DNA from: Clostridiales bacterium
GTDB taxonomy: Bacteria; Bacillota; Clostridia; Lachnospirales; Lachnospiraceae
NCBI GenBank assembly: GCA_021204025.1
Contig: JAJQAC010000010.1
Location: 1-32,510, forward strand
Length of the DNA stretch: 32,510 nt
Reading direction: 5' to 3'
This document shows, piece by piece, positions 13,875 through 24,670 of this stretch. The stretch's first letter is position 1, and every line of letters starts with the position of its first letter. The notes beneath the pieces were generated by a model. It ran no database searches and was not told the origin of the DNA. It worked only from the letters and a program-made list of their open reading frames with translations. The translations under genes were made by a program, and so were the position numbers.

Positions 13875-14039
13875 ACTTTATATCTTTCATTGTGTTTTAT
13901 AAAGTTTGCATTTTCTGTCGGATTATGGTATGATGAGGACACTTTCCTGAAAATACGATTCAGGCGAAAAGGTAAAGATACGTCCGATAAAATCACACTT
14001 GTGATAAAAGCAAAGAAATCAGTAAAGGAGACAGAAAAG

Positions 14040-14498
14040 ATGACCGAAGAAACAAAGATGATTCTGGATGAGATTCGATCGCTGAAAACGGATGTATCGG
14101 ATATGAGAGCGAATATGACCGAAATGAAGACGGACATATCAGATTTAAAGACAGAAGTATCGGCATTGAAGGCGGATATGGTCGAAGTGAAGACAGAAGT
14201 ATCGGCATTGAAGGCAGATATGGTCGAAGTGAAGACAGAGGTATCGGCATTGAAAACGGATATGGCCGAAGTGAAAGCGGACATATCCGGCATGAAGGAA
14301 GAGATAAGAAATATCAATCTTGTGTTGGAAAATGATATCAGCAAAAGGATTGATATTATCGGTGAGGGGCATGATTTTATTAATCGCAAACTTGACCGGG
14401 CTCTTTTGCGGGAGTCCCACTGGGAGCGGATCGAGTTGGAGATTATCAGTCTCAGGACAGATACACGGATGATAAAAAAGCATTTAAACATAGCGTAG
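14040..14498 (+). CDS. Coiled-coil protein with tandem 14-residue repeats
   Basis: 152 residues, almost entirely helical. From about 10 to 95 it shows heptad spacing of hydrophobic residues (SLKTDVSDM, EMKTDISDLKTEV, ALKADMVEVKTEV). The centre is three near-identical 14-residue units, followed by a short basic C-terminal region. No catalytic motif is visible. AAAGGAG lies nine bases before ATG 14040; the frame stays open upstream to 13890, but that segment looks non-coding and lacks a ribosome binding site. Stand-alone between two terminators. Related coiled-coil proteins of unknown role are common in Clostridia. Confidence 0.7.
   Translation: MTEETKMILDEIRSLKTDVSDMRANMTEMKTDISDLKTEVSALKADMVEVKTEVSALKADMVEVKTEVSALKTDMAEVKADISGMKEEIRNINLVLENDISKRIDIIGEGHDFINRKLDRALLRESHWERIELEIISLRTDTRMIKKHLNIA
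14148..14273 (+). repeat. Three tandem 42-bp in-frame repeats
   Basis: Units at 14148-14189, 14190-14231 and 14232-14273 each encode KTEVSALK(A/T)DM(V/A)EV. The first two differ by a single base. Partial, older units are recognisable on both sides (TEMKTDISDL before, KADISGMKEE after). Confidence 0.92.
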
Positions 14499-14610
14499 TC
14501 TGAAGGACAGGATTTTATAGATGTAAGAAAATGCTGAAAGAAAAAGAACACAAATGACTTGCGAAGATCTGCGCGGAGAGATACAGGAAAACATGAAAGG
14601 AAAGTCATAA

Positions 14611-14648
14611 AAACAACCGGAAGCGGGGTGATGCTTCCGGCTGTTTTT
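14611..14648 (+). terminator. Terminator between the coiled-coil and HxlR genes
   Basis: CCGGAAGC (14617-14624) pairs perfectly with GCTTCCGG (14633-14640). Flanking A-rich and T-rich arms extend it, so it could serve both converging genes. Confidence 0.85.
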
Positions 14649-14703
14649 GTATAAGCATTTAATCATTGATACGATGTTTTCTGTAAAGAAGCGGTGATGC
14701 AAT

Positions 14704-15078
14704 TCAGTGATAGTCACATTTCTGGCAATGAGGCATGGTCGCTTCAGCGTCCGGTTTATAAAAAATCCCCGACCATTTACAGATACTCTGCAGGATAGGC
14801 ACAACCGACTGCCCTTTTTCTGTCAGGCTATATTCCACTCGCGGGGGAATCTCGTTATAAGAAATCCGTTGTACAAGCTCATGTGAGATCAACGATTTTA
14901 ACGTAGAGCCAAGAACCGCATCGGTGATATTGCCCATCTCGCGGCGAATCTCGCTGTAACGCAGTGTTCCGAGGCTTGCCAGGACACAGATAATCCTGGA
15001 GTTCCACTTGCCGCCGAAAATCTCCATACCGTATTCCAATGGACAGCGGATATCCTCTTTTAATTTTTTCTGACACAT
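14704..15078 (-). CDS. HxlR-family (MarR/DUF24) transcriptional regulator
   Basis: A 124-residue winged-helix DNA-binding protein. The family opening is seen at CPLEYGMEIFGGKWNSRIICVL (read in two parts: C12 through the GGKW motif), followed by the recognition region GTLRYSEIRREMGNIT and SLISHELVQR. The wing ends in PPRVEYSLTEKGQSV. C12 matches the redox-sensing N-terminal Cys of YodB/HypR-type members. The C-terminal HCQKCDYH adds a possible metal or thiol site. AAAGGAG precedes the ATG. Its neighbours, a flavin-type protein and a redox operon, make thiol or quinone-type signals plausible, but its target is unproven. Confidence 0.92.
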   Translation of the reverse strand: MCQKKLKEDIRCPLEYGMEIFGGKWNSRIICVLASLGTLRYSEIRREMGNITDAVLGSTLKSLISHELVQRISYNEIPPRVEYSLTEKGQSVVPILQSICKWSGIFYKPDAEATMPHCQKCDYH

Positions 15079-15157
15079 GGCAAACTCCTTTTACGTAAAA
15101 GCATGTTTTGCGGATCTTGCAGCTTATTAAGAAGCTATAAGGTATGTCAATGCAATA

Positions 15158-15301
15158 GTCTCTGAGCGGGAAGAATATCCGCAGAGGGCATTTTTCACGT
15201 CGGCACTTAACGAACCGGACGCTTTTCCGGTGAGTTTAGTACCGCTACGTGAAAACTTAAGTGCGAACGGTCCTCGGAGGATATTCTTCCCGCTCAGGGA
15301 C
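15158..15301. repeat. Long palindromic structured element (144 bp)
   Basis: The outer arms 15158-15187 and 15272-15301 are complementary over 30 nt with about four mismatches, including a 19-nt uninterrupted core. Inside are three perfect short pairings: 15192-15200 with 15247-15255 (9 bp), 15203-15210 with 15257-15264 (8 bp), and the hairpin 15214-15219 with 15226-15231. The first two cross each other. It lies between the flavin-type gene and HxlR and encodes no convincing protein. It could be a MITE-like element or a structured RNA. Confidence 0.8.
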
Positions 15302-15398
15302 GGGCGATTCACCAATAATATCCTATCACATAATCGCGAAAAATGATAGAAGAAGCTGATTGCCATATAGGATAAAAATCATGGCCGGATCGATATTT

Positions 15399-15797
15399 CT
15401 ACGCCAGAACCTTCTTATTATCCGCGCCCGGAGTGGTAACGATCACCTGCTCAGGAGTGATGATGAGTGCTCCCTTTGCGGTAGCAGCTCCGTTGAACAT
15501 CTTTTCAACCATAGCCTTAAAGATATCAACGACCTCGCCGGAGGTTACATACTCAGCGGTGCCTTTGATCTGATAGCCCTCAAGGGAAGATGCGTCATAT
15601 GCGGAGATTGCGATCTTTCTGCCGTTTGCCTGGATGTTGTTCAGAGTGGTCTCAAGGAATACATCGCCTACCAGCAGTTTGCCATCATCGCTCACACTTT
15701 TAAAGGCAACCGGAACTACATTCGGTTCGCCGTTCTGGCAGGTAGCCAGATCCCACATACTTGCGTCTAAAACTTTCTTTACATTTTCAGTTAACAT
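15399..15797 (-). CDS. Pyridoxamine 5'-phosphate oxidase-like, FMN-binding fold protein
   Basis: A 132-residue split-barrel protein of the PNPOx-like superfamily. An opening helix precedes ATCQNGEPNVVPVAFK, a KLLVGDVFLETTLNNIQ segment that normally contacts flavin phosphate, and the KIAISAYD and GYQIKGTAEYV strands. Members bind FMN, F420 or heme and act on small molecules; true PNPOx activity is unlikely at this size. GGAGG precedes the ATG. Its promoter is divergent from the DUF401 permease and shares its operator, so it probably belongs to the molybdoenzyme regulon downstream. Confidence 0.85.
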   Translation of the reverse strand: MLTENVKKVLDASMWDLATCQNGEPNVVPVAFKSVSDDGKLLVGDVFLETTLNNIQANGRKIAISAYDASSLEGYQIKGTAEYVTSGEVVDIFKAMVEKMFNGAATAKGALIITPEQVIVTTPGADNKKVLA

Positions 15798-15932
15798 TTT
15801 AAATTTCCTCCTTTAAAAATTTTCTGTTTTGTCTGCCTGGTACCGCGAACAGGAATTTTTCTGGACATATAAAAATTTTTTCACATAAAAAAATTTCCTG
15901 ATATCCCGATGCCGTTTTCTGTGTACAACTGC

Positions 15933-15961
15933 ATTATATTGATATTAGGTTGACGAAACAA
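15933..15961 (-). promoter_or_regulatory. Promoter of the PNPOx-like gene
   Basis: Read on the minus strand: TTGTTT (15961-15956), a 17-bp spacer and TATAAT (15938-15933). TATCTTG (15965-15959) overlaps the -35 box as in the other two promoters of this group. Confidence 0.75.
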
Positions 15962-15983
15962 GATATCAGTAAATTTATGAGTT

Positions 15984-16001
15984 ACTAATAAATTTAATAG
16001 T
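15984..16001. promoter_or_regulatory. Shared operator between two divergent promoters
   Basis: ACTAATAAATTTAATAGT is an AT-rich palindrome with one mismatched pair. Its centre is 31.5 bp from the outer edge of the -35 box on both sides. The same palindrome, perfect, occurs at 17359-17376 before the ferredoxin operon at the same distance. The placement (centre near -66) resembles the recognition site of LysR-type activators; the protein that binds it is not identified. Confidence 0.75.
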
Positions 16002-16023
16002 TACCTATAAATCTCCTTGTATC

Positions 16024-16052
16024 TTGAAAATATCAGGCAACTGATATAAAAT
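16024..16052 (+). promoter_or_regulatory. Promoter of the DUF401 permease gene
   Basis: TTGAAA (16024-16029), a 17-bp spacer and TAAAAT (16047-16052). TATCTTG at 16020-16026 runs into the -35 box. Identical layout to the promoter at 17399-17427. Confidence 0.75.
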
Positions 16053-16093
16053 GACATCCATTAAATCGGAAACTCAGAGGGGAGATTGGAAGG

Positions 16094-17296
16094 ATGGAAG
16101 TATTATATCTGGGAATTGTGTTTTTGATCATTATCGCTGTTCTGGCATTGCGGCATCCGCTGCATCATGCGATTCTGGCCGGACTGGTGGTGATTGTGGT
16201 ATTATACCGGATCCCGCTGGGCGACGCGGCTGTCTGCACTTCGCGGGTCATTACCGTGTGGTCGTCATTTTCGGTGCTGGTGACATTTTATCTGATTACT
16301 TTTTTACAGAGGATTCTGGAAGCGCGTCAGCAGATCCGGCTGGCGCAGCAGGATCTGAACGGAATCTTTCATAACCGGCGTGTGAACGTAGCCGGTGCGT
16401 CGCTGTTTATCGGATTGCTGCCGTCCGCGGCGGCAATGATTCTCTGCGGTGATATTGTCAAGAGTGCGACGGACGGTTATCTGGAACCGAAGGAGCAGGC
16501 GTTTGTCACGACATGGTTTCGACACATTCCGGAGAGTGCGCTTCCTACTTACACGGCGGTGTTGCTGATGCTGAGCCTGTCCGGTGTGGAGCTGTCAAGT
16601 TTCCTGCCGGGGATGATTGTGCCGGTACTGACGCTGGCATTGCTGGGGTATGTGACTTATCTGCGAAGGATACCGAAAGATCCGGGGACACCGGTCAGTC
16701 AGTCGAGAGGCATGGATGTGATCCATCTGTTTCAGCATCTGTGGTCGCTGCTGCTGATCCTGGTTTTGATCCTGGGGTTGGGGTTCGATGTGGTATCTGC
16801 AGTGTTTATCGTTATTATTGCTTCCATTGTGATTTACCGGATAACCTTTGCAGAACTCAGAGAAATGATTGTGTCTGCTTTTGAAAAGAAGATGCTTGGC
16901 AATACTTTCCTGGTACTGGTATTAAAGGAATTTATTTCCTATACCGGTGTTCTGGAGCAGCTGCCGGAGCTGATGTCTGGTTTGCCGCTCCCTCCGTACC
17001 TGGTATTTGCGGTGCTGATGTTTGCGGCTACGGTGATCAGTGGTTCTACAGGAGCGATCGCGATGGGGACACCGTTAGCGTTTGCGGCGATACCGGGAGG
17101 CATGCCGCTGATGGTGTATCTGATGTGCATTACCCATGCGGCCAGTCAGATTTCACCGACTCATGTCTGTCTGGTAGTGGCGTCGGATTATTATCATATC
17201 TCGCTGGGAGAGCTGGTGAGGAAGACGATACCGTTTTCACTGGTGTTTTGCGTGCTGATGACGGTGTATTATCAGATTTTGCTTATGCTTGTTTAA
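16094..17296 (+). CDS. DUF401-family integral membrane permease
   Basis: 400 residues with about ten hydrophobic segments spread over the whole length, starting with an N-terminal segment at 3-20. The LFIGLLPSAAAMILCGDIV, PESALPTYTAVLL and AATVISGSTGAIAMGTPLAFAA stretches match the DUF401 family, a member of the ion-transporter-like superfamily of anion permeases. It probably imports an organic or inorganic anion; the substrate is unknown. It shares promoter design with the redox operon just downstream, which suggests it brings in the substrate of the molybdoenzyme. The start is set by GGGGAG about nine bases upstream. Confidence 0.85.
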   Translation: MEVLYLGIVFLIIIAVLALRHPLHHAILAGLVVIVVLYRIPLGDAAVCTSRVITVWSSFSVLVTFYLITFLQRILEARQQIRLAQQDLNGIFHNRRVNVAGASLFIGLLPSAAAMILCGDIVKSATDGYLEPKEQAFVTTWFRHIPESALPTYTAVLLMLSLSGVELSSFLPGMIVPVLTLALLGYVTYLRRIPKDPGTPVSQSRGMDVIHLFQHLWSLLLILVLILGLGFDVVSAVFIVIIASIVIYRITFAELREMIVSAFEKKMLGNTFLVLVLKEFISYTGVLEQLPELMSGLPLPPYLVFAVLMFAATVISGSTGAIAMGTPLAFAAIPGGMPLMVYLMCITHAASQISPTHVCLVVASDYYHISLGELVRKTIPFSLVFCVLMTVYYQILLMLV

Positions 17297-17358
17297 AATA
17301 TAGCAATGATAATGAAAATATGGAAAACTACAAAAATTTATATTCAGAAGATATGGAT

Positions 17359-17376
17359 ACTAATAAATTTATTAGT
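17359..17376. promoter_or_regulatory. Operator upstream of the ferredoxin operon
   Basis: ACTAATAAATTTATTAGT is a perfect 18-bp palindrome, the same sequence as 15984-16001 but for one base. It is centred 31.5 bp before the -35 box. Confidence 0.75.
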
Positions 17377-17398
17377 TACTCGTAATTCTGCTGGTATC

Positions 17399-17427
17399 TT
17401 GAAGACAGGGACTATTTGCTATAAAAT
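17399..17427 (+). promoter_or_regulatory. Promoter of the ferredoxin/FAD/molybdoenzyme operon
   Basis: TTGAAG (17399-17404), a 17-bp spacer and TAAAAT (17422-17427), overlapped by TATCTTG (17395-17401). The leader to the first ATG is about 145 nt. Confidence 0.75.
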
Positions 17428-17578
17428 GTTAATTAGCAGAACAAAAAGATCGTATCCGGTCATGTAGAGGGTATGTGGTTTGACCAGGTGGTCTTTTGTG
17501 GGCAGGGGTGCGAAGGGAAACCTCTGTTTTATCACTAAGACTATGATGACCGGCAAACAAACTAAGGGGAGGGATATC

Positions 17579-18139
17579 ATGAGCCGTTGGGGGTTCCTTT
17601 TCGACCAGACCAGATGCGTGGGCTGCAATGCCTGTCAGATGGCCTGTAAGGACAAAAATAACCTGGAGCTTGGGCAGTTTTTCCGTCGGGTAGCGACATA
17701 TGAGACCGTGAAGGATGGGAAAACATTCTGCGTGAATTATTCGGGTGCCTGCAATCACTGTAAGGACGCGGCCTGCGTGAAGGGATGTCCGACAGGTGCG
17801 ATGCATTATCGGGAGGACGGAACAGTCGCTCACGATGATGAGAAGTGCATCGGCTGTGCGACCTGCGTGTGGGTATGCCCGTATGGAGCCCCGTCTCTGA
17901 GCCATAAGAGGGGGATCGCACTCAAGTGTACCTCCTGTGTGGACCTTCGCAGGGAAGGGAAAAATCCTGCCTGTGTTGACGCCTGCATTATGCACTGCCT
18001 GGAATTTGTGGATCTGGATGAACTGGATGCGAAATCAGAAGAAAAGATGGTTCGGGACCTGCCATTTTTGCCGGATTCTTCCCTTACTGATCCTTCCCTG
18101 AGAATCATTCCGAAAGTTTGGAAGCGAGGTGAGCGATGA
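17579..18139 (+). CDS. Four-cluster ferredoxin-type electron-transfer subunit (DmsB-like)
   Basis: A 186-residue polyferredoxin that passes electrons to the molybdenum subunit. Sixteen Cys are arranged as in DmsB/NrfC: C13-16-19-23, C58-61-66-70, C90-93-96-100 and C117-120-132-136. That predicts four [4Fe-4S] clusters. There is no Tat signal or membrane segment. ATG 17579 with AGGGGAGGG upstream is chosen; the frame extends upstream to 17480, but that part is leader sequence. Its stop overlaps the start of the FAD gene. In DmsABC-type systems this subunit meets a membrane anchor; none is present here. Confidence 0.93.
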   Translation: MSRWGFLFDQTRCVGCNACQMACKDKNNLELGQFFRRVATYETVKDGKTFCVNYSGACNHCKDAACVKGCPTGAMHYREDGTVAHDDEKCIGCATCVWVCPYGAPSLSHKRGIALKCTSCVDLRREGKNPACVDACIMHCLEFVDLDELDAKSEEKMVRDLPFLPDSSLTDPSLRIIPKVWKRGER

Positions 18140-19350
18140 TGTCAGAGATTGTAATCCTGGGAAATGGAATCGCCGGTTATGCGGCGGCACGGGAAATCCG
18201 TAAATATGATACAAAATCGCCGATCACCTTTATTTCAGAGGAAAGGAGCACCACCTATCTGCGACCGCTTTTAAGTAAGACGTACTTCAAATCTTTTCAG
18301 AAAGAGAAGATTCGTCTGGAGACGGACGAGTGGTACCGGGAACAGGGAATGCGTCAGATCCTCGGTACGAGGATTATCGGAATCCGGACAAAGGAAAAAT
18401 GCGTGGAACTGGATCATGGTACTGTGATACCCTACGATATCTGTATCTATGCTCTGGGATCGAGCTGCTTTGTGCCGCCGTTTGGAGGAAAGGACAAAAA
18501 GGGCGTGATGGTCGTTCATTCTTTCCGGGACTTTGATCAGATTCGCAGGAGGCTTTACACCGCATCCAATGCGGTTGTGATCGGCGGCGGTGTGATCGGG
18601 TTGGAGATGGCCTGGGAGTTAAAGCAGATGAACTGCGGGCTGACAATCCTGGAGGCCGGACCGAGGCTGATGGGCAGACTTCTGGATGAGCAGTCTGCGG
18701 GAGTCTTAAGTGACGCGATCCGCAGTCAGGGGATCACAGTGGAAGCAGGAGTTAATATTAAGGAAATCACGGGGGATGAGGCAGCGACAGGCGTGGCCTG
18801 TGCGGATGGCTCTTGGTATCCGGCAGACGTGGTAATCGTCTCCTGTGGCGTCCGTGCCAATAGTCAGATTGCCAGAGAGGCTGGCCTGACCTGTGATCGC
18901 GGCGTAATAGTCGATGAAACGATGCGGACAAGCGATCCGTGCATCTATGCTGCGGGAGACTGTATGCAGGCAGCGTCACCAAACCCCTCCCTGTGGTCTT
19001 ATTCGAAGGTATCCGGGGAGACGGCAGGATATAATATCTGTCATCCGGACACGCCGCGGCCATTTATCGCGCCGCCGTCGCCGGTTATCATTTCCGGGTT
19101 TGGGACGAATCTTTTTTCGATTGGAGATGTGTCAATCGGGGAAGGTGTGACAATCGTGGATGGAGACGATTGCACGGAAAAGAGTCCCGAGCCGGTTCAG
19201 ATGGCAGGGAGAAGATTCCGGGTCAATGAGGCCAGAGGCGGCGATACGCATTATTCGCGGCGCATTTATCGGGATGGGAAGCTGAAAGGTGCGGTTCTGC
19301 TCGGTGATCTGTCAGACATGGCGGCGATCAAGGCGGAGCTGGGATTCTAA
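18136..19350 (+). CDS. FAD-dependent NAD(P)H-type oxidoreductase (rubredoxin/ferredoxin reductase-like)
   Basis: A 404-residue flavoprotein of the pyridine nucleotide-disulfide oxidoreductase superfamily without redox Cys pair. FAD-binding GNGIAG is near the N-terminus, the NAD(P) Rossmann motif GGGVIGLE near 155, and the FAD-contacting IYAAGDC near 275. It probably takes electrons from NAD(P)H and hands them to the polyferredoxin. The start overlaps the previous stop (ATGA), indicating coupling; a second ATG three bases on is equally possible. The molybdoenzyme gene follows after 10 bp. Confidence 0.9.
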   Translation: MMSEIVILGNGIAGYAAAREIRKYDTKSPITFISEERSTTYLRPLLSKTYFKSFQKEKIRLETDEWYREQGMRQILGTRIIGIRTKEKCVELDHGTVIPYDICIYALGSSCFVPPFGGKDKKGVMVVHSFRDFDQIRRRLYTASNAVVIGGGVIGLEMAWELKQMNCGLTILEAGPRLMGRLLDEQSAGVLSDAIRSQGITVEAGVNIKEITGDEAATGVACADGSWYPADVVIVSCGVRANSQIAREAGLTCDRGVIVDETMRTSDPCIYAAGDCMQAASPNPSLWSYSKVSGETAGYNICHPDTPRPFIAPPSPVIISGFGTNLFSIGDVSIGEGVTIVDGDDCTEKSPEPVQMAGRRFRVNEARGGDTHYSRRIYRDGKLKGAVLLGDLSDMAAIKAELGF

Positions 19351-19360
19351 GGAGGGTCAG

Positions 19361-22306
19361 ATGGACAGACGGGAATACGGGATTTATACAGATTTACTCT
19401 CATGCGCGTCGTTCTTTTGGCGTCGTGATTATGGCGTGTCGATCATCCGGAGGATGGATGACTGGAAGGAACACACAGAACGCGAGTGGGAACTGGAATA
19501 CGACGCGCTGTACCGTGGAACAAACGCGGATTATCATATGCCGCTCTGGGCGTCCGTCTTTCTGGGAGATAAGGCGCTCCTGAACCAGACGACGCTGGAA
19601 GTGATCCAGACCTATCATAAATGGGGATACGAACCTGTGCGTATGGAGGGCAATCCTCCGGATTATATCGGCGAGCAGTTCCGGTTTCTCGCCTATCTGA
19701 CGGCGGCGGGTATTTATGCAGAGGAACACGGTGACTCCCCGGCAGTTGAGGAGATAAGGGAAGAGAGAGAGGAGTTCATCCTTTATTATACCTGCGGCGA
19801 GATCCGGATGATGAAGGATGCCGCGGGTAAAAACGGGACTTATCAGGGTTACGTCGATCTGCTGGAAAAGTACCTGGCATTTCTGGCGGATGAAGACCAC
19901 GGACATGGTAATTTCCCATTGGCGGGAAAGAATCATGAATGTAGTGATTCTGCGTTGGCGGAAGAGAATCATGGAGATGACACTTTCTTATTGCCGGAGG
20001 GCTTTCAGGATGAGGAACTGGAACAGGTCATGCTGCATGGCAGACATCCGGAGATCCCCAATGAGAAAGCGCATGTTATCCCAACCGGCGGCATCAATAA
20101 CTGCGGCGGCATCTGCGTGATCCGTCCGACTGTGCAGGAGGGTTGTATGCTGTCGATTGAATCAGACTGTACCAGCAACCATCCTCAGATCCGTGCCTGT
20201 GTGCGGGGGCGCGGATACCGCAAGACGTTTTTAAATCCGGATCGCCTGCGCTATCCGATGAAGCGGATCGGCGAGCGGGGCAGCGGGAAGTTCGAGCGCA
20301 TCAGCTGGGACAAAGCGGTTTCTATTATCTATGAGAACTGGGTGCGGATCCGTGATACCTATGGGCCGGGATCGCGTTATCTGATCTATGGCACGGGGGT
20401 GACCGGCATCATGCGTCCGGGCAACCTGATCAAGCGGCTGCTGGCAATGGATGGCGGGTATCTGGATTATTTTAATTCCTACAGTTCCGCGCAGGTTAAC
20501 TATATCATGAACTATGTGTATGGATCGACACACGGTTCAAACAGCGCGATGGATCTGGTCAATACAAAGCTGCTGATCCTCTGGGGACACAATCCTTCTG
20601 AGACCATTTTCGGGCCGGAGCGCAATTATTATCTGTCAGAATTAAAAAAGAAAAATATTCGTGTCATAGCGATTGATCCCAGATTAAATAATACGGCGGC
20701 GGCCTATGCGGATCAGTGGATCGCCCTGCGTCCGGCGACGGACAGCGCGCTGGCGGATGCCATGGCCTATGTGATCTGGTCGGAGGGGCTGCAGGATCAG
20801 CATTTCATGGACACCTACTGCATCGGTTTTGATGAGGATCATATGCCGGAAGGCGTGCCGTGGGGTGAGAGCTATCACACCTATCTGTTTGGTTTAAAAG
20901 ATGGGGTGCCGAAGACTCCGGAGTGGGCGGAACCGATCACCGGAGTCAGCGCGGATGTGATCCGGGGTCTTGCCAGAGAACTGGCGGCGGCAAAGCCTGC
21001 CTGTATTCAGGCGGGGCTGGGACTCCAGCGCCATGGAAACGGGGAACAGAGCGCAAAAAGTGTGATGATGCTGAGCTGCCTGACAGGTAATGTCGGTATC
21101 TCGGGCGGCAGTCCGGGCGGCAATGCCAGTAACCTGGAAGAACATCATACGCCGTCTCTTTTTACGAATACGGTTGCCAATCCTTATCCGGGAAAGATAC
21201 CGGTTTTCCTGTGGACGCGGGCGATCGAGCATGGTACCGAGATGACGCCGAGGGGAGACCGCCTGAAGGGTGTCGATCATCTGGACAGCAATATTAAGAT
21301 GCTCTTTAATATCGCGAGCAATACACTGATCAACCAGCATGCGGATATTAATGACACGATCCGCATCTTAAAGGACGATACGAAGTGTGAGTTCATCCTG
21401 TGTTCGGATATCTTTATGACAGCGAGCGCGCGGTATGCGGATATTGTCCTGCCGGCCACGTCGGTCTTTGAAGGAAATAATATCGTGGCTTCCTGGGCGG
21501 GCGGCAATTATTTCCTGAGAAATAATAAAGTCGTGGAGCCGTTATTTGAGAGCCGCTTTGAATGGGAATGGATCAAGGAAATCGCGGGACGTCTGGGGAT
21601 CCGCGAGGAATTTACCAATCATATGGAGGATGCCGAGGACTGGCTGCGGGCGAATTACGAGATCCTGCGTGAGAAAGAGCCGGGACTTCCGGAATATGAG
21701 GAGTTTTGCCGGCTCGGCGGCTGGCAGTTCGAGGATCCGATTAACGGAATCCCGTTTTATAATGAGATCCATGATCCGGAGCATTACCGTTTTAACACGC
21801 CTTCCGGCAAGATTGAGATCTTTTCGAAAGAATTATATGATTTTGGGCAACTGGAAGATATCCCGGCGATCCCGAAGTATGTTCCGGCGCCGAGAGGATA
21901 TGAGGACTCGCGTCGGGAACAGTATCCGTTGCAGTTAATCGGCTGGCATACCCGCAGGCGGTGCCATTCCATTCATGATAACAATGAGTGGCAGGATGAG
22001 GTGGAGATGCCGTCCGTATGGATGCATCCGTCAGATGCGGCCAGACGCGGCATCCGCAATGGAGACCTGGTCGAGGTCTATAATGAGCTGGGCAGGGTAC
22101 GGCTCCCGGCGACGCTGACCAACCGTATCCGGGAGGGCGTCGCGGCGATGTCCCAGGGAGCCTGGTATACGCCGGATCGGGATGGGACGGATATCCGCGG
22201 CTCGATCAACGTGCTGACGTCGGCGGCAGAACCGTCGCCGCTTGCCAAGGGCAATCCGCAGCATACCAACCTGGTTGAGATCTGTGCGGCGTCAGTGCCG
22301 GCGTAA
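19361..22306 (+). CDS. Molybdopterin oxidoreductase with an N-terminal TorD/DmsD-like chaperone domain
   Basis: 981 residues in two parts. Residues 1 to about 215 resemble the all-helical TorD/DmsD chaperones, notably PLWASVFLGDKALL and PPDYIGEQFRFLAYLTAAG (99-117), ending in a His/Asp/Glu-rich linker. From about 235 runs a DMSO reductase-family catalytic subunit: Fe-S motif region C248-C252-C280, RGRGYRKTFLNPDRLRYPMKR, YSSAQ, a HGSNSAMD segment that may hold the Mo ligand Ser, and a C-terminal molybdopterin-dinucleotide domain (about 865-975). The first of the four usual Fe-S cysteines is Gly (G244). There is no Tat signal, so the enzyme should stay in the cytosol. Start set by GGAGGG. The substrate is unknown. 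Confidence 0.9.
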   Translation: MDRREYGIYTDLLSCASFFWRRDYGVSIIRRMDDWKEHTEREWELEYDALYRGTNADYHMPLWASVFLGDKALLNQTTLEVIQTYHKWGYEPVRMEGNPPDYIGEQFRFLAYLTAAGIYAEEHGDSPAVEEIREEREEFILYYTCGEIRMMKDAAGKNGTYQGYVDLLEKYLAFLADEDHGHGNFPLAGKNHECSDSALAEENHGDDTFLLPEGFQDEELEQVMLHGRHPEIPNEKAHVIPTGGINNCGGICVIRPTVQEGCMLSIESDCTSNHPQIRACVRGRGYRKTFLNPDRLRYPMKRIGERGSGKFERISWDKAVSIIYENWVRIRDTYGPGSRYLIYGTGVTGIMRPGNLIKRLLAMDGGYLDYFNSYSSAQVNYIMNYVYGSTHGSNSAMDLVNTKLLILWGHNPSETIFGPERNYYLSELKKKNIRVIAIDPRLNNTAAAYADQWIALRPATDSALADAMAYVIWSEGLQDQHFMDTYCIGFDEDHMPEGVPWGESYHTYLFGLKDGVPKTPEWAEPITGVSADVIRGLARELAAAKPACIQAGLGLQRHGNGEQSAKSVMMLSCLTGNVGISGGSPGGNASNLEEHHTPSLFTNTVANPYPGKIPVFLWTRAIEHGTEMTPRGDRLKGVDHLDSNIKMLFNIASNTLINQHADINDTIRILKDDTKCEFILCSDIFMTASARYADIVLPATSVFEGNNIVASWAGGNYFLRNNKVVEPLFESRFEWEWIKEIAGRLGIREEFTNHMEDAEDWLRANYEILREKEPGLPEYEEFCRLGGWQFEDPINGIPFYNEIHDPEHYRFNTPSGKIEIFSKELYDFGQLEDIPAIPKYVPAPRGYEDSRREQYPLQLIGWHTRRRCHSIHDNNEWQDEVEMPSVWMHPSDAARRGIRNGDLVEVYNELGRVRLPATLTNRIREGVAAMSQGAWYTPDRDGTDIRGSINVLTSAAEPSPLAKGNPQHTNLVEICAASVPA

Positions 22307-22360
22307 CATCAATCAAAAAAGACATTCAGAAGTAACTTTTGCATAGTATATTCCTCTTAT

Positions 22361-22415
22361 GAATTCGACGGAGTGAAACCGTGTCTTGTGAGACAGGATT
22401 CGCTCCGTCGAATTC
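22361..22415. repeat. Long hairpin after the molybdoenzyme gene
   Basis: GAATTCGACGGAGTGAA (22361-22377) pairs with TTCGCTCCGTCGAATTC (22399-22415) with one G-U. Inside, TGTCT pairs with AGACA around TGTG. No T run follows in either direction, so it is not a standard terminator, although it may still limit read-through. A second small hairpin (CCTGCCA/TGGCAG) lies at 22443-22456. Confidence 0.8.
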
Positions 22416-22530
22416 GTGTTAGCCATAGCATACGGAAGGACCTGCCAGTGGCAGATCCTGCAGTTGAAAGGATTTTATAGGGAACGACTGAAGCCGTATC
22501 CTATAACGAAATGAATCGTTCAATGAACGT

Positions 22531-22686
22531 TTATGCGGGGCTGAACTGGTCTTTGCCGACCATGCAGAGCGGACATACCCAATCGTCAGGGAGATCTTCC
22601 CATTTGGTTCCGGGCGCGATTCCGTTGTCCGGATCACCGAGAGCTTCATCATATTCATAGCCGCAGACATCGCAGATATATTTCAT
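22531..22686 (-). CDS. Rubredoxin
   Basis: A 51-residue one-iron electron carrier. The iron is held by C5-x2-C8 and C38-x2-C41, with the conserved [20 protein letters not shown] in between. Length is normal. The frame is open further upstream, but GGAAAGGAGG and the family N-terminus ([13 protein letters not shown]) fix ATG 22686. It has its own promoter with an embedded operator. Rubredoxin typically donates electrons to superoxide reductase, which is encoded 2 kb away. Confidence 0.97.
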
Positions 22687-22722
22687 GTGTATCACAGCCT
22701 CCTTTCCGTTGATGTTAGAGGT

Positions 22723-22751
22723 ATCATAGCATAGTTTATGGCATATGTCAA
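22723..22751 (-). promoter_or_regulatory. Rubredoxin promoter
   Basis: Minus strand: TTGACA (22751-22746), a 17-bp spacer and TATGAT (22728-22723), giving a leader of about 30 nt. The -35 box is the inner end of the left operator arm. Confidence 0.85.
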
Positions 22752-22776
22752 CAAAGCTATTGGCATATGCCATAAA
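22735..22776. promoter_or_regulatory. Paired GGCATATGCC operator between rubredoxin and FMN-binding genes
   Basis: TTTATGGCATATGTCAA and TTGGCATATGCCATAAA form an inverted repeat with one mismatch and an 8-bp spacer. Each arm is itself a near-palindrome centred on CATATG; the centres are 22 bp apart, two helical turns. It overlaps the rubredoxin -35 box, so a bound protein should repress. Confidence 0.85.
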
Positions 22777-22826
22777 TGGACGTAAGATTAACGCGAATGT
22801 GCATTTTGTATTTTTTCCTTGAGTTA

Positions 22827-22854
22827 TTGTTTTTTATTTATCCATAACTATAAT
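22827..22854 (+). promoter_or_regulatory. Possible promoter of the FMN-binding protein gene
   Basis: TTGTTT (22827-22832), a 16-bp spacer and TATAAT (22849-22854), close before a GAGGAGG. The short distance to the ribosome binding site leaves a very short leader, so the call is tentative. Confidence 0.45.
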
Positions 22855-22871
22855 TTGAGGAGGAAAGGTAC

Positions 22872-23555
22872 ATGGGAAAACAAATGGCACTGGTTCTTGC
22901 AGCAACCGTGGCCGTATCCGCGACCGTGTGCTCGAGTGGCAGCAGCTCTACTGCGACGACGACTGTGGCGCCGGCGGAGACAGCCGGGGCATCCGGCGCG
23001 TATGTCGCCGGTACTTACACAGGGGAAGATTCCGGCTTTGGCGGGACGGTATCCGTTACGATCACGACGGATGGGAGTAGCATCACAGACGTAGAGGCAG
23101 TCGGCAACGATGAGACGGAGACGATCGGTGGAGCGGCGTTGGCTGATCTGGCGCAGCAGATTCTGGACGCACAGAGCGCGGAGATCGACGGCGTGTCCGG
23201 GGCGACGATCACTTCCGGTGCTGTGAAGGAAGCGGCGCAGGCGGCAATTGAGGCCGCAAAGAGCGGAGAAGATACCGCAGCATCCGCGGAGGGCGGTGAG
23301 ATCACTTATACGGCGGGAACCTATACTGGTACCGGATCTGGTTACAATGGCGATGTGGTGCTGGATGTGACTTTTGGTGATGATGCGATTACGGATATTC
23401 AGGTGAATACATCTGGAGAGACGGCGCATGTGAGTGATATCGCGTATGACATTATGTTTGCAGATGCGATCGAGGCGAACGGTTCCGGTATTGACTCGGT
23501 GTCTGGCGCAACGTTTACGAGTCGGGCGATCAAGGAAGCTTTCCGGGTATTATGA
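22872..23555 (+). CDS. Exported protein with two FMN-binding (flavinylated) domains
   Basis: 227 residues. A short hydrophobic signal (about 4-19) ends at Cys20, but with Val at -1 the lipobox is poor, so lipidation is uncertain. A Ser/Thr-rich linker follows, then two FMN_bind modules ending in the ApbE flavinylation motif: DGVSGAT (106-112) and DSVSGAT (208-214), where the Thr would carry covalent FMN. Such proteins carry electrons outside the membrane. The last module stops abruptly at AFRVL, slightly short. GAGGAGGAAA precedes the ATG. No apbE or membrane flavoprotein partner is in the window. Confidence 0.88.
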   Translation: MGKQMALVLAATVAVSATVCSSGSSSTATTTVAPAETAGASGAYVAGTYTGEDSGFGGTVSVTITTDGSSITDVEAVGNDETETIGGAALADLAQQILDAQSAEIDGVSGATITSGAVKEAAQAAIEAAKSGEDTAASAEGGEITYTAGTYTGTGSGYNGDVVLDVTFGDDAITDIQVNTSGETAHVSDIAYDIMFADAIEANGSGIDSVSGATFTSRAIKEAFRVL

Positions 23556-23736
23556 ATTGGGCGAGGGCAGTTTTTACCCCATACTTGCCTTGCGGGTTGT
23601 TGTGTGCCGATGGCATGCACATTTCGTTTCAGTCGATTCTTAGCGTGTGCCATTGGCGCACAGAACCGTTTAGCAACGACCGAAGCGGAGCGCAGACCGG
23701 GGGTGTTAGCCGCAAAATTCTTTGCCAGGTTCCACA

Positions 23737-23789
23737 CACAATAAATGGCATATGCCAATGATTATTATTGACATATGCCATTTATTGTG
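23737..23789. promoter_or_regulatory. Paired GGCATATGCC operator before the DUF134-NifX gene
   Basis: CACAATAAATGGCATATGCC (continuing AAT) at 23737-23759 and its complement at 23767-23789 form a 23-bp inverted repeat with one mismatch and a 7-bp spacer. The CATATG centres are 23 bp apart. Same motif and same overlap with the -35 box as at 22735-22776. Confidence 0.88.
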
Positions 23790-23796
23790 CTATGAT
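23768..23796 (+). promoter_or_regulatory. Promoter of the DUF134-NifX gene
   Basis: TTGACA (23768-23773), a 17-bp spacer and TATGAT (23791-23796). From the -35 through the -10 it closely matches the rubredoxin promoter (TTGACATATGCCAT near the start and GCTATGATA at the end). Confidence 0.85.
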
Positions 23797-23827
23797 AAGG
23801 AAAATCGAGCGATTGGAGGTGACCGAA

Positions 23828-24670
23828 ATGCCGAGACCAACAAAATGTCGGATGATCTGCCGCTTTCCCCAGACTCTGGAATTTATTCCGGTAAGGAGTG
23901 AGGATGAGAGCGAACCGGTGATTCTGACTGTGGATGAATTTGAGACGGTACGCCTGATTGACAAGGAAGGATTATCCCAGGAAGAGTGCAGCAAACGGAT
24001 GCAGGTCGCCCGGACAACCGCGCAGAAGATCTATAATTCTGCCAGGCTGAAGATAGCGACCGCCCTGGTAGAGGGATTGCCGTTAAAGATCGAGGGCGGA
24101 GAATATCAGCTGTGTGACGGCTGGAATCGGTCCTGCGGGTCCGCGAACTGCCGTAAGCAGAAACTTTATCAGATTTACCAGAAATCGAAAGGAGAAACGA
24201 TTATGAGAATAGCGGTTACTTATGAAAATGGTCAGATTTTTCAGCATTTTGGCCGTACAGAGCAGTTTAAGATTTATGACACTGAGGATGGAAAGATCGT
24301 ATCCTCGGAGGTAGTCAGCACCAATGGCGAGGGTCACTGTGCGCTGGCGGAGATTCTGCGGGCGCTGCAGGCGGATGTGCTGATCTGCGGCGGGATCGGA
24401 GGGGGCGCACAGGCGGCGCTGAACTCCCTGGGCATTAAACTGTACGGTGGAGTGAGCGGAGACGCTGACGCGGCGGCACAGGCGCTGCTTGAGGGAACGC
24501 TTGCTTATGTGCCGGATGTGCGGTGCAGCCATCATGAGGAGCATCACCATGGGGAAGGGTGCGGAGAGCACCATCATGGAGAGGGCTGCGGTGGCCATGG
24601 AGGACATCATCATGGGGAAGGCTGCGGCGGTCATCATTACGGAGAGGGCTGTGGGAATCATGCGGAGTAG
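23828..24670 (+). CDS. DUF134 (UPF0251) DNA-binding domain fused to a NifX/NifB-type domain with His/Cys-rich tail
   Basis: 280 residues in three parts. Residues 1-125 are a UPF0251/DUF134 protein, with MPRPTKCRMIC, LTVDEFETVRLIDKEGLSQEECSKRM and a sigma-like HTH (VARTTAQKIYNSARLKIA). Residues 126 to about 230 are a dinitrogenase iron-molybdenum cofactor-type domain (MRIAVTYENGQIFQHFGR, LICGGIGGGAQAALNSLGI), a fold that binds metal clusters. Residues about 233-280 are four HHHGEGCG-like repeats likely to bind metal. ATG 23828 has GGAGG. The two domains are often separate genes. It may sense iron or cluster status and bind the GGCATATGCC operator upstream of itself; this is inference. Confidence 0.88.
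   Translation: MPRPTKCRMICRFPQTLEFIPVRSEDESEPVILTVDEFETVRLIDKEGLSQEECSKRMQVARTTAQKIYNSARLKIATALVEGLPLKIEGGEYQLCDGWNRSCGSANCRKQKLYQIYQKSKGETIMRIAVTYENGQIFQHFGRTEQFKIYDTEDGKIVSSEVVSTNGEGHCALAEILRALQADVLICGGIGGGAQAALNSLGIKLYGGVSGDADAAAQALLEGTLAYVPDVRCSHHEEHHHGEGCGEHHHGEGCGGHGGHHHGEGCGGHHYGEGCGNHAE
24203..24670 (+). other. Possible internal translation start giving the NifX-type domain alone
   Basis: An in-frame ATG at 24203 begins exactly at the NifX domain (MRIAVTYENG) and is preceded by AAAGGAG at the right distance. A separate 155-residue product could be made besides the fusion. This may be an active start or the relic of two formerly separate genes. Confidence 0.5.

Follow-up and report, generated by a model that had tools for sequence, protein, structure and literature searches.

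A palindromic operator at a fixed distance from the promoter stands before three transcription units in the window (the whole 32,510-nt stretch of DNA analysed here, within which all positions are numbered), and comparison with other genomes makes it very probable that this element is the DNA target of the adjoining HxlR/DUF24 regulator, which would activate the genes behind it, with thiol-reactive stress as the probable signal. In this way a previously unexplained repeat becomes a regulon that can be tested in anaerobic Clostridia, and operator, spacing and regulator together are specific enough for targets to be predicted from sequence alone. Moreover, a stress regulator would thereby be linked to a molybdenum-dependent S/N-oxide-reductase-like enzyme and to a class M sirtuin, and this linkage offers a route to the signals and substrates of both.

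Operator and promoter geometry

Two palindromes were found in the window: ACTAATAAATTTAATAGT at 15984-16001 (centre 15992.5), in which one base deviates from perfect symmetry, and ACTAATAAATTTATTAGT at 17359-17376 (centre 17367.5), a perfect 18-bp palindrome. They lie upstream of a gene for a PNPOx-like protein (minus strand), a gene for a DUF401 membrane protein (plus strand) and an operon that begins with a DmsB-like gene (plus strand). At all three promoters, TATCTTG started 27.5 bp from the palindrome centre (16020 and 17395 on the plus strand, 15965 on the minus strand), the TTG of the -35 box started at 31.5 bp, and the spacer between the -35 and -10 boxes was exactly 17 bp. From the two distances, the first-pass annotation of this DNA had proposed one operator design with identical geometry at three promoters, the first palindrome being common to two divergent ones; on alignment the distances were exact throughout, and both the design and the divergent arrangement were found to be conserved in other genomes too. 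That annotation had also remarked that the sequences between palindrome and -35 box are alike. They are, but their nature had been missed, as they constitute a second operator, a degenerate copy located 19 bp downstream.

The full element consists of three boxes 19 bp apart (GTNAC-N14-GTNAC-N14-ATATC), the third of which directly abuts the -35 box (TTN/TTG), with 17 bp then leading to the -10 box. Judged by its layout, the element reads as two overlapping operators with one common half-site. The 19-bp step was independently recovered in the window by a repeat finder, which placed the two sites 1375 bp apart and 85% alike over 46 bp. Operator 1 (op1) of the divergent pair is the 24-bp palindrome GTTACTAATAAATTTAATAGTTAC at 15981..16004, a zero-mismatch match in a looser palindrome scan. 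On the minus strand, the predicted degenerate operator 2 (op2) of the PNPOx promoter, GTAACTCATAAATTTACTGATATC at 15962..15985, has one half-site in common with op1 and abuts the -35 box TTGTTT (15956..15961), which is followed by the -10 box TATAAT (15933..15938). On the plus strand, promoter alignment and matrix scoring placed op2 of the DUF401 promoter, GTTACCTATAAATCTCCTTGTATC, at 16000..16023, with TTGAAA at 16024..16029 and TAAAAT at 16047..16052 as the aligned -35 and -10 boxes. For the DmsB-like operon, op1 is GATACTAATAAATTTATTAGTTAC at 17356..17379, which encloses the perfect 18-bp core; op2, GTTACTCGTAATTCTGCTGGTATC, was placed in the same way at 17375..17398 (plus strand), and the aligned boxes are TTGAAG at 17399..17404 and TAAAAT at 17422..17427. 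At both plus-strand promoters, DUF401 and DmsB-like, op2 is weak.

Allowing up to three mismatches, the 18-mer occurred twice in the window where 0.03 occurrences were expected, and none of 100 shuffles reached two. A scan of the window's own genome (G000, 3.04 Mb) returned only these two places at the same threshold. The reversed control pattern had 7 matches on each strand of G000, so genome-wide the bare AT-rich 18-mer does not stand out; at the level of sequence, the case is carried by exact copies, fixed geometry and conservation. In G000 the looser palindrome again found only these two places, with 3 and 1 matches for its reversed control; in the sister genome G020 it found one further place, and the control matched 0 and 3 times.

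Comparison of G000 with G020 showed that the operators and promoter boxes of both elements were kept. Identity was 20/24 and 23/24 in op1, 16/19 and 14/19 in the remainder of op2, 6/6 and 5/6 in the -35 box, and 6/6 in both -10 boxes, compared with 7/17 and 9/17 in the -35/-10 spacers and with 17/60, which equals background, in the 60 bp upstream of either element. The strict form of the whole element was present in only 2 of 41 genomes, namely these two; a looser form was distributed more widely, and further genera in both the family and the class also have this promoter.

Promoters were sorted into class A (a far palindrome plus a degenerate near copy, with op1 centred 31.5 bp before the -35 box, at about -66.5) and class B (a single palindrome immediately adjoining the -35 box, at about -47.5). 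Thirty-three non-redundant class A promoters were collected, 32 of them with enough downstream sequence, and one (L114) was added later to make 34; these counts are not independent events because the genomes are related. The -10 box lay at 17 bp in 31 of the 32 and at 18 bp in the other. In 33 of the 34, the -35 boxes matched TTGACA at a mean of 3.4 of 6 positions, and the -10 boxes matched TATAAT at 5.2 of 6. When the operator matrix was applied without the common box, scores peaked at an offset of +19 (mean 1.9 bits, against a mean of -29 with sd 6 over all offsets), a peak that is partly built in because op2 formed part of the matrix by which the 34 promoters were chosen. No such selection bias affects the window's direct repeat.

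Association of the element with HxlR orthologues

The proposed binder of the operators is a HxlR/DUF24 regulator of 124 aa encoded at 14704..15078 on the minus strand (Pfam HxlR, E 4e-27). Its score against PF01638 (94.4 bits, cut-off 20.8) makes it a member of the family, and its PDB relatives are YdzF, YtcD, HxlR, YybR/HypR, YodB and QsrR. The first-pass annotation had preferred a LysR-type activator and named the HxlR protein as another candidate. The second candidate gained strong support from its linkage to the sites, from co-occurrence, from the sites in front of hxlR genes and from the paralogue comparison; the LysR preference is disfavoured, as the site tracks HxlR.

With up to three mismatches, the element was present in 13 of 250 genomes of the window's family (reversed control, 0), and HxlR orthologues (E<=1e-25) were present in 14 of the 250. 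In the 249 genomes other than G000, both were found in 9, the motif only in 3, HxlR only in 4, and neither in 233 (Fisher p 1.7e-11). The motif-only genomes comprise G110, with a HxlR fragment behind the element, G263, with a truncated PNPOx gene, and G066, without a recognised gene or close HxlR. Of the HxlR-only genomes, two (G177 and G239) show class B sites, one (G247) has a 20.7-bit site, and the last (G077) has a 45% paralogue and no site.

Individual loci were scored with a matrix built from the G000 and G020 sites only. A site scoring 12.6 bits or more was present at 23 of 24 loci with a close (at least 54%) HxlR orthologue and at none of 14 paralogue loci, where the highest score was 10.6 bits; the 12.6-bit line is the lowest orthologue score and was set after the fact. 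When the G000 and G020 loci were omitted, 21 of 22 orthologue loci had a site. The exception was a cut contig (L104), and L077, a close HxlR fragment with a degenerate site (16.8 bits), was counted in neither group. Under a matrix trained on the full set of sites, a reversed-control match at one locus, L107 (16.8 bits), outscored the site of L069 (11.9 bits).

The association extended beyond the family. In other families of the class, 6 HxlR orthologues were found in 391 genomes (E<=1e-40), and 5 of the 6 had an adjoining site. A scan of a contig database found the element in seven stretches, two of which were G020's record. One was a Mycoplasma sequence (L024), taken as a chance match in an AT-rich unrelated genome. 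The remaining four (other Clostridiales, Lachnospiraceae or Yanshouia records) all had a HxlR gene nearby; in L023 this gene spans two frames, and the site of L028 is identical in sequence to that of G003.

Within the genus, a close HxlR was found in six of 24 genomes (G000, G002, G003, G004, G013 and G020; a second close HxlR of G013, on C109, lay outside the examined loci). In G020, hxlR and the PNPOx gene are on contig C12, and C27 carries the sites of DUF401 and of the DmsB-like gene, so those targets would be regulated in trans. G011 encodes a DmsB-like subunit with 61% identity and no close HxlR, and no site was found before its DmsB-like gene; G023 has an 80% PNPOx protein, no close HxlR and no site there. 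Contrary cases are G066, described above, and G018. In the latter, a site precedes a PNPOx gene that runs off its contig at residue 57, and the genome yielded no close HxlR. Partial PNPOx copies in G020 (L098), G003 (L099) and G247 (L041) had no site. Among the examined loci, one LysR-like neighbour (L061) was recognised by reading the ORF listings. A Fnr/Crp-type palindrome, considered for the 5-6-5 layout, was dropped given the HxlR linkage; three loci (L036, L052 and L094) have, by reading, a Crp/Fnr-like gene close to the one for PNPOx.

The cysteines of the regulator were compared in 25 of 26 intended orthologue rows (L069 was left out). Cys12, the N-terminal redox cysteine, was present in 25/25 rows, and Cys31, Cys100, Cys118 and Cys121 in 25, 23, 23 and 22, so that the conserved cysteines include a C-terminal CxxC in the window protein. 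Losses were confined to three rows: L026, which reaches a contig end, L105, which has a stop, and the frame-shifted L070, where the match at 118 is accidental.

Genes behind the two promoter classes

PNPOx-like proteins are the usual conserved target, accounting for 19 of the 34 class A promoters, some with truncated genes. The window's own PNPOx-like protein (132 aa, 15399..15797, minus strand; Pfam PNPOx_N, 1.9e-11) shows weak similarity to HupZ chains. Five promoters lead into a 96-aa protein without known family, two each into DUF401, DmsB-like and SIR2-like genes, one into a TSCPD protein and one into a HxlR fragment; behind the last two nothing was recognised (L051, at a contig end, and L048 of G066). 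The class A promoter of L048 lies at about 1491-1560; nothing that follows it could be recognised as a gene, and G066 has no close HxlR.

The 96-aa protein is conserved under the element (L023:1357-1647, minus strand; also L050, L075, L107 and L108). It was tried as a small monooxygenase, and this was rejected, with no Pfam or NCBIfam match at cut-offs and no PDB match below E 1.7; given the lack of a database match, no function is claimed. SIR2-like proteins stand directly behind class A promoters in G280 (L034:2222-3088, minus strand) and in G020 (L114, downstream of 1543, plus strand). The L034 protein matched a solved SIR2-family chain, 5A3A, at E 4e-61, which we take to be the class M sirtuin of a 2015 study. 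That study links class M sirtuins to the response to reactive oxygen (PMC4518038).

In the window, the DUF401 membrane protein (400 aa, 16094..17296, plus strand; Pfam DUF401, 1.1e-21) and the DmsB-like iron-sulfur subunit (17579..18139, plus strand; by profile matches), the first gene of its operon, both retain their site in G020. At E<=1e-60, the DmsB-like gene was found in none of the 249 other family genomes. Next in the operon are a FAD/NAD(P) oxidoreductase (18136..19350, plus strand), related to NirB N-terminal and NorW reductases at scores below their curated cut-offs, and a molybdoenzyme of the DMSO/selenate-reductase family (19361..22306, plus strand; NCBIfam TIGR02166, 880.6 bits, cut-off 777.7). 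Together, the molybdoenzyme and the FAD reductase suggest, from their sequences, a soluble NAD(P)H-linked S/N-oxide reductase. The PDB relatives of the molybdoenzyme are TMAO/DMSO reductases, and a chaperone-like Nitrate_red_del domain (Pfam PF02613) covers its N-terminal residues 36-139. No membrane anchor subunit was noticed beside the two genes.

Class B comprised 24 rows. Fifteen lead into hxlR, including a fragment (L077), a gene broken after residue 88 (L040) and one at a contig end (L026), and two lead into LysE. A further three are second copies of class A promoters (L026, L028 and L075), one is a coincidence at a DUF401 fragment (L012, 18.8 bits), and three match no query (L033, 37.8 bits; L106, 24.9 bits; L077, 18.0 bits). 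The strong L033 site (1705-1800) faces an ORF from 1798 that is DUF134-like by reading, and a similar ORF is present in the window at 23768-24670.

At several loci one palindrome serves both classes, with hxlR at the near side and a divergent class A gene at the far side (L026, L050, L034/L062, L074, L075, L076, L107 and L108), or with LysE and a class A gene (L023). The window differs in that one palindrome serves two class A promoters, and no site was found upstream of the G000 hxlR among the listed promoters. In L053, L077, L040 and L052, the hxlR or PNPOx genes are degraded and the operator is retained, which suggests that the module was lost in several lineages.

Proposed mechanism and comparison with known regulators

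We propose that, once the signal is sensed, one HxlR dimer would seat on op1 and assist a second dimer onto the weaker op2, where HxlR would contact RNA polymerase at the poor -35 box and activate transcription. Since op1 is palindromic, one copy can serve two divergent promoters, and three promoters in G000, those of the PNPOx-like protein, the DUF401 membrane protein and the DMSO-reductase-like molybdoenzyme operon, would be switched together. Activation from about -66 is plausible, and the geometry makes activation most likely; it is favoured because the strong operator lies upstream, the near operator lies at a poor -35 box, and B. subtilis HxlR and HypR are described as activators (PMC7835342, PMC10458429). 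The kinds of target genes suggest redox or electrophile stress, and the signal is probably thiol-reactive. The palindrome against the -35 box could repress, rather than activate, hxlR itself.

Other explanations of the element were weighed. LysR-type activators use a recruitment site upstream (about -66) and an activation site nearer the -35 box, and the element resembles them in both respects. However, the LysR motif T-N11-A is odd-spaced and the window palindrome is, by reading, even; moreover, the site follows HxlR orthologues across families and sits at hxlR promoters, and in the ORF listings that were read no LysR gene was seen to track it. Because the site tracks HxlR, we consider it very unlikely that the palindrome is bound by an activator of the LysR type with its gene elsewhere. 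That the likeness of the three promoters reflects recent duplication only, with no regulator behind it, is scarcely credible: the two window sites are indeed 85% alike over 46 bp and only 1375 bp apart, but the element also stands upstream of unrelated genes in many genera, and against G020 its operators and promoter boxes are kept with upstream flanks at background. Duplication may nevertheless be the route by which the DUF401 and DmsB-like promoters gained the element.

It also seems unlikely that HxlR binds these sites as a repressor released by oxidation or a ligand, in the manner of YodB and CatR. Several DUF24 proteins are repressors (PMC10458429) and the proximal half-site abuts the -35 box, but the -10 box and the start are both free of operators, the strong one lies upstream, at -66.5, and poor -35 boxes go with good -10 boxes. 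The YodB/CatR/QsrR proteins belong to the same DUF24 family as the window protein and have the N-terminal Cys in common with it, yet they are repressors, unlike the activator proposed here; YodB and CatR control detoxification pathways (PMC10458429).

HxlR/DUF24 activators are already known; the proposed regulon and the promoter layout appear to be new. In the open-licence literature, no HxlR regulon was found described for anaerobic Clostridia, nor was this operator, regulon or two-register promoter layout found. The hxlAB promoter of B. subtilis has two upstream 25-bp HxlR sites. B. subtilis HxlR (PDB 7BZD/7BZE/7BZG), of the same Pfam family as the window protein (phmmer E ~1e-16), is described as a transcriptional activator that was crystallised with a 20-bp palindrome (PMC7835342). 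The window protein is only distantly related to it and has extra conserved cysteines, including the C-terminal CxxC; its operator is unlike the crystallised DNA, and no hxlA or hxlB was seen among class A and B targets. The Lys13 position was located by alignment to chain u120027 of 7bze, a K13A variant of HxlR (PMC7835342). The window protein reads C12-P-L14, with Leu where the formaldehyde-crosslinking Lys13 of the Cys11-Lys13 pair stands, and formaldehyde chemistry is therefore not expected. HypR controls a nitroreductase. This solved relative (YybR of B. subtilis; PDB 4A5M/4A5N; E 2.6e-15) is described as a thiol-based DUF24 activator that responds to hypochlorite and electrophiles (PMC10458429, PMC6943732).

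A wider reading is possible, and we hold it with low confidence: the regulator may be a Clostridia-wide HxlR-type thiol/metal sensor that uses one palindrome in two registers to control a stress regulon including a captured molybdoenzyme. The far register (-66.5 plus the degenerate operator) would serve effectors, and the near register (-47.5) the regulator's own gene on the other strand. The regulon would take in PNPOx-like proteins, LysE exporters and the class M sirtuin, and the soluble DMSO-reductase-like molybdoenzyme of the species pair would have been newly captured by copying of the whole operator-promoter module.

No Rfam element reached its gathering score in 14000-24000 of the window. 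Between the PNPOx-like gene and hxlR, a large imperfect hairpin was observed at 15158-15301 (41-nt arms, 80% complementary, 62-nt gap), which could be a terminator or a mobile repeat. In the ORF list, the ORF at 13890-14498 carries a tandemly repeated coiled-coil-like motif (EVSALKADMVEVKT).
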